From Candolleomyces eurysporus (lineage: Eukaryota > Basidiomycota > Agaricomycetes > Agaricales > Psathyrellaceae), in contig JANBPK010001192.1 in NCBI GenBank assembly GCA_027579435.1, forward strand, positions 1-64,000: DNA of 64,000 nucleotides, given 5' to 3'. Position numbers and translations under genes: made by a program. Shown here in pieces: positions 49,951 through 53,232 of the stretch. Position 1 is the stretch's first letter; every line of letters begins with the position of its first letter. The notes beneath the pieces were generated by a model. It was given only the letters and a program-made list of their open reading frames with translations. It did no database searches and was not told the origin of the DNA.

Positions 49951-51899
49951 TCACCCTGTGTGCTCGACAACAGTCGTCACTAGCTTTCCATTCTGCAGGA
50001 CCGTCTTCAACATCTCGGGGACAGGTTGTTCCTGGAACACACCCTCTTCATCACCGTCAGGTATGCTGATATTAATGGCGCTGCACTTGGCTGTAGTGAT
50101 CTCTGCGTTGAGGCTGTCTTTGGAGAGGAAGACTTGGCCAGAATCGGTAGAGTCGATCTGGACCATGGGTGCGGTACCTAACACTTGCACGGTGAATGAA
50201 GGGGAAGAGGTGACAGAGACGGAGGAGACGACAGAGTCGACGAGGACGGAAGTCTTGGTGCTGTTATCTGTTCACATTAATATGTATGTAAGCTTTTTGA
50301 GGATGTACTTGAGATAGACGATCTTCAGGTACTTACAGATGGTGACAGCGTTGATCTTGCCCTTAATGATAATCACACTGCCCTTGCACCCAAAGATGTT
50401 CACGGATTGGTTGATCTCGACGTTCTCAACTGTCAACGATTCGTTCTCTTGGTGTTCCTATCGGAGTCCTTCCGTCAAAAAAAAGAGAAAAACTGGTGCG
50501 TTCGGAGAAATCACATACAATGAGCCACTTGTTCCCTTCCAAAGCGAATTTGGGCGGCTTCTTTCCAGCAAGGGCAGAAGGTTTAGTTGGCTTGATAGGT
50601 TTCTTGCCAGCGGGGGACGTAGAAGTCGACGCAGGAACCGTGCTGCCCGCCCGCAAAGACGGGTTCTTGTGGGTCATCTCGCTCTTGTCGACCTTGCGAA
50701 GGCCCTTGGTGATGTCTGCACCTTTGTTGATTTCGGCGAAGACGGCGGCGGCTCCACCACCAGACGCAGGAGCTGCGGCGGCCTTGGGTGGAGGGGGAGG
50801 AGGAGGTGGAGGGGCACCAGGGGCGCCTCCCGCAGCTGAAGAATTAAACTGATCATATGGAATGCCCTGCGTTGTAACATTAGAACGTTAGTGATTCACA
50901 GGATAACGAGGATGGCAGTACCTTGGCGTTCCAGACCAACCCGGTTGTGTAGTGCTCCTTTGCGTACTTCTGCAGCTCAGTGAGGATTCCGCTGTAGGAC
51001 CTAACCCACTCGACGTGCTTAGGGCCCCTGCAAAGCAATAGAGGCTTAGACGATAACTGTAGCAAACGAAAGAAAGCTGCGTACTTTTCTTTGTATTCCT
51101 TGATCACTTTGTTCGCATAGTAGTCGGCCGACTCCTTTATGCCCTCAACGTATGGGCCAGGCTTGGCCTACAATGAACTCAGTCAGTCGCGGAGAACGGA
51201 AGTGAGCACAATGATAGAAACCGACAGTGACAACCCATCCAACAGCGGGTGCGCCTTCCGCGATGAGGGTCAAATGGCTAAACCAAGCATTATCCCTCCT
51301 ATGAGATTCCTTGGCTCTGGAAACAGCCTGGATCGAGGCCTCCAGTCCACCCAACAATGCCTCAAGTGCCTTCTGGTCTGGTTTCTGACAAGTAGCCGCT
51401 GCAAGCAAGAAGGATCGCAGCACAGTGTATTCCTTCTCGATGAGCCCGGCCTACATGACGCGTTTGATGAGTGCTACATGTCAGGAGGCTGCGGAAACCG
51501 GGGTGCGGTATGAACTCACGAGCTCAGTAACGCTTGCAGATCCGAGTTCATTGCTGACTTTGACGAAAGGCTTGATCTTGCCTTCGATGATTTGTTCGTC
51601 AAAGGCAGTGACGGTCGCTGGAGTTTCCTGGGTTGGGGCAGCTGATGCGGGTGGAGGTGGAGGCGGAGGCGGGGGAGGTGGTGGACCTGAGGACTGTCCA
51701 GGTGGTTGCTTTGGTCCTGGCACCGCTCCCTGAGGAGCCAGGGAACCTTGAGTAGAAACGATATCTTCGATTCTCGATGTCGCAGCCTCGAGGCTATTAT
51801 TTCCTGATCAGACTCATGATTCTGTCCGAGTAGCACTCGATATCCCTACCGCTTAATGATAGTGGCCAGTGAGTGAAGGCCTTGGGCGGGATTAGCCAT
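49951..51899 (-). CDS. CAP: adenylyl cyclase-associated protein (CAP/Srv2)
   Basis: Actin-monomer recycling factor that also links Ras to adenylyl cyclase in fungi. The N-terminus (MANPAQGLHSLATIIKR, LEAATSRIEDIV) is the oligomerising, cyclase-binding coiled coil. A first poly-proline run follows at about 51640-51680, then the helical folded domain (LEASIQAVSRAKES, GPYVEGIKESADYYANKVIKEYK, HVEWVRSYSGILTELQKY). A second proline run lies at about 50780-50820, then a WH2-like stretch (LRKVDKSEMTHKNP), then the beta-helical CARP domain (NIFGCKGSVIIIKGKINAV, TAKCSAINISIPD) that binds ADP-actin. About eight or nine exons with introns of 50-70 nt. The start at 51899 is supported by a 56-nt intron after IIKR. 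Confidence 0.92.
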
Positions 51900-52087: not shown

Positions 52088-52813
52088 ACTAGTCACTATC
52101 TTCACCATCTTCCATAGTTTTCAACTGAGCCTTTTTCTTTGCCTTCTTGCGCCGCCTCCGTTCTCGCTCTCGCTGTTTCGCTGCCTTCATCTCTTCTTTG
52201 GACATGCCAGGATTCTTTAGTTTGTCGAGCTAGGAACACATTCATGACTCGGAAAGCGGAATGCAAAGACGAGAACAAACTTTTTCAAGCATCAACTTCC
52301 GGGCACGCGCTCTGTTCAACGAGAGAGAACGGGTCTCCTGGCACGATACTCGGAGACCAGTTGGCTTATGGAGAAGCTGGACGTTGTTTTCGGTTTTATT
52401 GATAGATTGTCCACCCTACTACAGGTGTCACCGTTGTTTACATCCGAAACTACAGCAGAGCATACCGGTCCACTCCCTAAGCATCGATCAGTAACGACGT
52501 CTGTGACCGTCAGAGAGAAGATACCCACCACGAACAAATGACTCCTCCAAGTCCTCCTCTCTCAGCTCTGGTAACTTTCTCTCTTTGTGAGCACGTTTCA
52601 GGGCCGAGTAGTTGAGTGGACGTGGAGGCTGTGTGGTATCGCTATGAGGCGGAACAGCACCTAATTTCTCGCTTCAATCAGAGTTCAGAGACTGGCAACG
52701 ACAGTACCTGTGACCTCACCGTTTGCGTGCACTCCGGCTTGAGGTGTCCACTGGCGGGGAGTTCTTGATGGTGTCGTTGTCACCAAGTTCTGTTTCCTTG
52801 CGGATGTTTACTC
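52088..52813 (-). CDS. mitochondrial class-I release-factor-like protein (GGQ), start unclear
   Basis: Relative of yeast Rso55 and human MTRFR, which rescue stalled mitochondrial ribosomes by peptidyl-tRNA hydrolysis. Exons: 52529-52660, 52466-52476 (11 nt), 52281-52415, 52088-52229. They read LPELREEDLEESFVR, GSGP, then GGQSINKTENNVQLLHKPTG, CQETRSLSLNRARARK and a basic tail (RERERRRRKKAKKK). The catalytic GGQ lies just after the micro-exon. Upstream the frame continues through 52720-52813, an exon that also encodes the end of MZM1 in another frame. No ATG is found in the release-factor frame before TAA at 52808-52810. The start is therefore unresolved: a separate 5' exon, a non-ATG start and read-through are all possible. 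Confidence 0.75.
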
Positions 52814-53232
52814 CTGCAGCACCGTTGTGGGTTATGAGAACCGCAAGCTCAGAGGAATAGACTTACTATACAGGTCCTTCCCATCGGACTCCCCAACCTT
52901 GACTCCTTGTACGATGTTCTTCCGGAGAACGACACCAATTTCACGAAAGAGTTTGGTGTACTGTTCATAGCTTTCAGGAACCTTGGCTTCCTGCGCTGCA
53001 TTCACTGCATCGAGACGCATTTTCTGTCGGAATGCTACCCAGTGTCAGAGCCTTGCCAGAATACCTTGTGACGTATATACCTTGTAGCACGGCATCATCG
53101 CCTTTTACAGGGTGTGAGCTCAAATTTCTAATAATTTGGGGACCACATACCTCTAAATGTCACCGAGGACGCCCTCCAGACATCCCGATAGGCAGAGCGG
53201 GCAGCAGCCTTGAGCGCTGGTGTGATGGACAT
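52642..53232 (-). CDS. MZM1: MZM1 (LYRM7-like), complex III Rieske assembly factor
   Basis: LYR-family matrix chaperone that stabilises the Rieske protein before insertion into complex III. Exons: 53151-53232, 53081-53101, 52867-53034, 52720-52813, and 52642-52660 with the stop. They give 127 aa in frame. SAYRDVWRASSVTFRGDD is the LYR-type helix, NIVQGVKV and RVNIRKETELGDNDTI match the yeast protein, and the end is SARKRCCSAS. If the last intron is retained the protein stops four residues earlier at TGA. The last two exons are shared, in a different frame, with the release-factor-like gene. Confidence 0.85.

Follow-up and report, generated by a model that had tools for sequence, protein, structure and literature searches.

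MZM1 and a mitochondrial release factor (RF) of the C12orf65/Pth3 type share one exon series on the minus strand of the window, by which we mean the whole 64,000-nucleotide stretch of Candolleomyces eurysporus DNA analysed here. From the sequence, we propose that this is one gene with two products, MZM1 and MZM1-RF, according to which 3′ splice site ends intron 4, a reading to which we assign a probability of roughly 60%. An RF homologue search found 623 proteins; among the 120 listed (98 NCBI-sourced and 22 from jgi/lgn records), MZM1 sequence stood in front of RF in 97 of the 98 NCBI-sourced homologues, and none of the 22 jgi/lgn RF ORFs was fused to MZM1. The last count makes the route of RF production the main uncertainty and limits our confidence to the stated level.

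In the proposed mechanism, the distal TAG acceptor (exon from 52660) would yield standalone MZM1 with a Cys-Cys-Ser tail, a putative LYRM7-type chaperone of the Rieske protein, and the RF exons would become 3′ UTR in that mRNA. The proximal AAG acceptor (exon from 52671) would shift the frame and yield a 264-aa MZM1-RF, with an N-terminal LYR domain that presumably directs the protein to mitochondria and a C-terminal C12orf65/Pth3-type GGQ domain with a putative role in the rescue of stalled mitoribosomes. The bases for CCSAS* would serve as linker in the fusion, hence their reading in two frames. Both frames and both AGs can be read in the window, the fusion frame is the one annotated in relatives, and a CCS tail appears encodable in the +1 frame of many of them. 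The frame switch is better explained, at the level of sequence, by two alternative intron 4 acceptors than by two separate proteins. The preliminary description of this DNA had raised the possibility that one transcript yields factors for both complex III assembly and mitoribosome rescue; one gene for both is supported by the sequence, but a fusion fits better than two separate proteins. We infer that this species produces the two mRNAs, the distal one being the major form, and that the fusion is the sole source of RF and is imported, with any cleavage following import. Introns downstream of a stop codon are expected to invite mRNA decay, and against the two-acceptor reading stands the distal mRNA, which would have three introns beyond the MZM1 stop.

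Exon structure of the MZM1-RF locus

ORF reading, homology and genome search placed exon 1, common to MZM1 and MZM1-RF, at 53151–53232, with its ATG at 53232–53230. Exon 2 (53081–53101; 21 nt, reading GDDAVLQ) was found by ORF reading and aligned with relatives, and exon 3 (52867–53034), encoding the LYR-family core of MZM1, by homology and genome search. Exon 4 (52720–52813) carries the TELGDN..SSRSARKR end of the MZM1 core; at least 90 of the 98 NCBI-sourced relatives read it in the frame of MZM1. Intron 4 has two candidate forms. One, of 48 nt (52672–52719), ends at the proximal acceptor (AAG, AG at 52673–52672) and would give an in-frame MZM1-RF fusion, as suggested by comparison of the linker SARKREKLGAVPP with SARKREKLDAAPP of the related protein P0004; the other, of 59 nt (52661–52719), ends at the distal acceptor (TTAG ending at 52661) and would give standalone MZM1 ending CCSAS*, to which CCS-tailed standalone relatives and a YAG signature point. 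Exon 5 of the fusion (52529–52671; 52529–52660 in the distal form), placed by splicing trials and genome search, joins the linker to the N-terminal RF part. Within it, positions 52642–52660 form the predicted dual-coding stretch, read as the MZM1 tail (R)CCSAS* or as GAVPPHS of the fusion linker, on the evidence of linker back-translation and shuffles. RF is completed by an 11-nt micro-exon (52466–52476; ORF reading) that supplies GSGP directly before GGQ, by exon 7 (52281–52415), which encodes the RF-1 domain and its catalytic GGQ loop (Pfam PF00472, E 2.3e-23 when the RF exons are joined), and by exon 8 (52089–52229; ORF reading), which encodes the Lys/Arg-rich RF C-terminus and ends at the stop TAG 52091–52089. 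MZM1 of the distal form ends ...RSARKRCCSAS, and its TAG stop (52644–52642) lies 19 bases into the exon that starts at 52660.

Much of the earlier account was borne out by ORF reading: the MZM1 exons, a candidate intron at 52661–52719 that gives the RCCSAS end, the sharing of exons with RF, and an ATG at 52968–52966 in the RF frame, upstream of a TAA. With the 59-nt intron, the RF frame is indeed +1 to MZM1 and open from that TAA (52810–52808) into GSGPGGQS. The openness of exon 4 in this frame, over 29 codons, is no more than expected by chance ((61/64)^29, about 0.25 by hand calculation). The same account had read exon 4 in +1 as the beginning of RF, with TSARKQNLV.. as a presequence; this was not supported, given the MZM1 sequence before RF in 97 of the 98 NCBI-sourced homologues, and an exon 4 presequence finds little support in the sequences. 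Two models, P0010 (Coprinopsis cinerea AmutBmut) and P0031 (Amanita muscaria), read exon 4 in +1 via changes before exon 4, and are the sole hint that this frame codes.

Genome search found the MZM1-RF locus once, with no second genomic copy. Other RF-1 family matches in the genome lay at C346:6184–6542 and C1023:17668–18023 (both in G000), with near-equal scores; by score only they are perhaps mtRF1, and the pair perhaps represents two haplotypes. Downstream, at 51481–51807 on the minus strand, begins a gene for the adenylyl cyclase-associated protein CAP (PF01213), whose likely ATG lies, by eye, about 190 bp past the RF stop. The divergent neighbour, from 53688 on the plus strand, is Lys/Ala-rich and histone-H1-like by eye, and its first 51 codons had no Pfam match.

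Family assignment of the two halves

The RF part combines the RF-1 domain and GGQ with a C-terminus that is basic by reading, and it has no stop-codon recognition domain, features that place it in the C12orf65/Pth3 (MTRFR) family. Its best sequence matches in the PDB were C12orf65 structures (7a5h, E 2.7e-21; 2rsm, E 1e-17), followed by bacterial RF1/RF2 from 5e-12 upward and by ICT1/ArfB at 0.36–0.47. A Foldseek search with the model of P0004, the Ephemerocybe protein and not that of the window, returned 2rsm second and 7a5h third. For the other half, the MZM1 profile found Mzm1p of Saccharomycodes ludwigii (8.5e-22) and proteins named Mitochondrial zinc maintenance protein 1 (1.4e-18 to 1.2e-16), thus relating it to named MZM1/LYRM7 proteins. 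Against solved structures this profile gave just two matches, at E 0.62 and 0.97. NCBIfam models beyond chance for P0004 were release-factor models alone, with nothing useful for MZM1. With the 52671 acceptor, both domains are predicted to lie in a single 264-aa ORF, as in a tandem protein.

Alternative acceptors of intron 4

We tried the eight AGs that follow the 52719 donor, down to 52628. The 52671 acceptor, with an intron ending GAAG, gave one unbroken 264-codon frame (...SARKREKLGAVPPHSDTTQPPRPLNYSALKRAHKERK..GSGPGGQS..) that matches the Ephemerocybe fusion P0004 (...SARKREKLDAAPP...). The 52660 acceptor gave the CCSAS* ending and 127 aa, that at 52641 gave a fusion as well, of 254 aa, and the remaining five gave products that stop at 123–133 aa. 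One intron had been taken to serve both frames, a claim that was not supported.

The proximal AAG acceptor lies 11 nt upstream of the distal TAG acceptor. The 48-nt form of intron 4 fits the gene better than the 59-nt form because the other introns measure 46–53 nt, and intron 1 likewise ends in AAG. Towards its 3′ end, intron 4 holds a single YTNAY branch-like site, 17 nt away from the distal AG but just 6 nt away from the proximal one, a spacing that favours the distal acceptor; the test is a weak one, since introns 6 and 7 give no site with the same pattern. Among other routes to a fusion, the 52641 acceptor was less favoured than 52671, for which EKLGAVPP has a counterpart, EKLDAAPP, in P0004. 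Skipping of exon 4 stays in frame but loses the TELGDN..SARKR segment that relatives keep, and acceptors within exon 4 that rescue its +1 frame would need a start in exon 3, an arrangement found by hand in no annotated relative. Retention of intron 4 gives SARKR*, with a TGA from the donor. P0121, annotated in Candolleomyces eurysporus itself (Agaricales, Psathyrellaceae; 122 aa, 100% identical over 122 aa), ends in this way at KR, and matches neither the CCSAS* form nor the fusion.

A probable two-frame tail in relatives

Fusion linkers of relatives showed a recurring pattern: a residue with a possible T-ending codon, A or V twice, and then P, Q, L, R or H. Shifted one base earlier, such a pattern can read TGY TGY TCN, that is, Cys-Cys-Ser. 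We back-translated the linkers of related proteins and asked whether +1 could hold CCS with a stop no more than six codons further on, using the 90 of 120 proteins in which the exon 4 end in the MZM1 frame was found by pattern; the 30 left out were the 22 jgi/lgn ORFs together with P0010, P0031, P0048, P0067, P0085, P0096, P0100 and P0102. CCS plus stop was possible in +1 in 66 of the 90 linkers, compared with a mean of 15.8 and a maximum of 23 over 100 shuffles, and in the other shifted frame in 2 of 90. A stricter rule that left out sites by the RF start gave 58 of 90 (shuffles: mean 13.3, maximum 22). In eight of the 66 positives, seven with an AVPR-like site, no site occurred except within nine residues of the RF start, and these eight are probably coincidental; P0118 may be another coincidental positive, and P0009 was scored as a miss since its linker had been cut one residue short. 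CC in +1 was the strongest outlier among 795 dipeptide/frame classes (z 9.3, 50 shuffles). Because the sequences are related, none of the linker statistics, that for the acceptor below included, translates into a clean probability.

The residue before the preceding G-codon could be encoded as NYA, allowing a YAG acceptor, at all 21 D/G-type and all 22 E-type sites, against a background of 0.56 of linker residues; these two types make up all but about 23 of the sites.

The 24 linkers lacking the +1 motif include those of Polyporales, Amanita, a Russula, Mycena and Schizophyllum, and the CC falls in the fusion frame itself in Pleurotus, Hohenbuehelia, Gelatoporia, Obba and Serendipita. Three Polyporales linkers (P0065, P0068 and P0113) read VLLLMTS or VLSIMTS; by a reading by hand that does not enter the counts above, the shifted frame other than +1 could encode CCCS* or CCQS* in them, and in this group the two acceptors may stand in reverse order.

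The CCS frame signal is strong by back-translation, and the fusion frame is seen over the same bases as the annotated reading. The tail over 52660–52642 in +1 is apparently non-random, and two conserved readings seem to overlap over about 19 bases, since standalone MZM1 proteins share the CCS tail and 66 of 90 linkers can encode CCS plus a stop. Retention of the overlap in relatives, on which the earlier idea depended, appears to hold for many of them, and the CCSAS* tail is also seen in relatives.

Standalone MZM1 proteins

A profile built from 25 MZM1 halves found 179 proteins, of which 120 were listed. Among the first 28 new entries (P0131–P0158), 13 ended in CCS plus at most seven residues, five carried RF sequence and ten showed neither; CCS endings also occurred in P0171, P0184 and P0190. 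Named examples are Pleurotus ostreatus (CCSE*), Armillaria luteobubalina (CCSS*) and Marasmius tenuissimus, whose CCSAS* is identical to the tail in the window; three standalone CCS-ended ORFs are in NCBI annotations. Marasmius tenuissimus is annotated in both forms, P0133 (..CCSAS*) and P0038 (..PVAPPAE..), and a single DNA can encode both. CCSAS* fits just 4 of 91 linkers, including those of the window and of P0038. The tails of Armillaria and of Pisolithus-like and Suillus-like proteins each fit a related fusion as well, a weak agreement because the same tails fit 37–39 of 91 linkers. As standalone MZM1 proteins of other fungi frequently end, by eye, in CCGG, CCSS or PCSA, the Cys tail looks ancestral.

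Routes to the release factor

The uninterrupted ORFs of the jgi/lgn contigs suggest that these are spliced transcripts; if so, the lack of any fusion among their 22 RF ORFs implies that a fused mRNA is rare or absent. These ORFs begin with Met in 18 cases, Val in three and Leu in one, and they favour the alternative closest to the preliminary description, a dicistronic mRNA in which only the distal acceptor is used and RF is started separately in +1 by reinitiation, leaky scanning or a non-AUG codon. Polycistronic mRNAs are widespread in mushroom-forming fungi according to the excerpted text of PMC4503453, and Tephrocybe is annotated with two proteins under successive numbers (P0147 and P0100). 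For an RF ORF (P0028) and an MZM1 ORF (P0153), the jgi contig has a listed length of 1693 in each case, and the two may belong to a single dicistronic transcript. A Met lies between the CC motif and GGQ in 29 of the 65 motif-bearing fusions, where a separate RF start is possible, but not in the other 36, and in the window no ATG occurs in the RF frame between the TAA at 52808 and the GGQ loop; in species that lack such a Met, only the MZM1 start or a non-AUG codon can lead to RF. As the MZM1 sequence is also present in 97 of the 98 NCBI-sourced models, though these are predictions, we consider separate initiation unlikely.

Unfused RF ORFs in transcript-like records would also suit a programmed +1 frameshift at the MZM1 stop of the distal mRNA, which would make the MZM1-RF fusion. 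Bacterial prfB and eukaryotic antizyme use such frameshifts, and the RF frame is +1-compatible with the CCS tail in 66 of 90 linkers compared with 2 of 90 for the other shift. The stop context in the window is TCA TAG, however, and relatives' linkers imply other codons, with no conserved slippery codon apparent by hand, and nearly all NCBI-sourced homologues are annotated with splicing that joins the two parts in frame. We regard this route as improbable. At the same long odds, such frameshifting past the stop of a complex III chaperone would produce a mitochondrial release/rescue factor, a eukaryotic parallel to the bacterial RF2 gene and its self-regulation, and the Cys-Cys tail and RF linker would be under joint selection across Agaricales and Boletales.

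Slightly more doubtful is a simple gene fusion, in which MZM1-RF is the sole product and the CCS reading a relic. MZM1 preceding RF in nearly all NCBI-sourced homologues would be expected of it, and Serendipita, Pleurotus and Hohenbuehelia retain an in-frame CC inside the fusion. A relic fits poorly, however, with the existence of standalone CCS-ended ORFs, with Cys-ended tails being frequent among fungal MZM1, and with linker variation (A/V, then P/Q/L/R/H) of the kind expected if a Cys-Cys-Ser frame is preserved.

Gene predictors prefer long ORFs to short genes and may have forced some annotated fusions: P0053 has a linker that resembles intron sequence, and models of its type run through probable intron. 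Nevertheless, an annotation artefact, in which two ordinary neighbouring genes were merged and RF has separate, unseen 5′ exons, is very improbable, as the N-terminal exon of RF and the exon with the MZM1 tail are one and the same, and the two-frame signal lies within it. In a search for relatives' DNA, the best 80 of 334 genome-contig matches were all bacterial records, and viral contigs gave none.

Discussion

If two acceptors are used as we propose, a single transcription unit would supply a class of fungi with both a chaperone of the respiratory chain and a rescue factor for mitoribosomes; in this species, their ratio would be set by the choice between splice sites 11 bases apart, and a few bases would be held in two frames across Agaricales and Boletales. 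Many mushroom annotations would then carry just one of two products.

No precedent had been named for the pair, and we too found no description of MZM1 with a release factor in open-licence papers; LYRM4-RF1 fusions have, however, been reported. Among those papers, LYR-RF1 fusions were found treated only in the review PMC4381221, in whose excerpted text LYRM4-RF1 (C12orf65) fusions are annotated in five insect species as unreviewed predictions. Since LYR and RF are joined in insects also, the pairing may have arisen twice, which would hint that iron-sulfur assembly and the rescue of mitochondrial translation are functionally connected. The insect LYRM4 (ISD11)-RF1 resembles MZM1-RF in joining a LYR protein to the same RF family, but the LYR paralogue is another, and the excerpt describes no two-frame tail. 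The same source reports that the S. pombe tandem protein Rsm22-Cox11 is cleaved after import. Like MZM1-RF, it unites a mitochondrial translation-related protein with an OXPHOS assembly factor in one polypeptide; its partners differ, and section 10 of the review mentions neither alternative splicing nor a dual-coded tail for it.

The MZM1 half resembles fungal Mzm1 and human LYRM7 by profile match and by the Cys-rich C-terminus of many fungal members, whereas the named Mzm1 proteins have standalone lengths and lack RF. Pth3/Rso55 of yeast and C12orf65/MTRFR of human are encoded by separate genes; the RF half is like these, with C12orf65 (7a5h, E 2.7e-21) as its best solved relative. Pth3 rescues stalled mitoribosomes (excerpt of PMC7940416), and another C12orf65 fusion, with MJ1316, is noted in an excerpt of PMC6514570. 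'Release factor' and 'Mzm1' do not occur in the main text of PMC4503453, nor 'release factor' and 'zinc maintenance' in PMC11590231. In their excerpted text, these two papers report alternative splicing and polycistronic and overlapping transcripts in Agaricomycetes, with 25.2% of transcribed P. crispa loci alternatively spliced (PMC4503453). MZM1-RF would resemble such mushroom loci in that one transcript unit has several readings.
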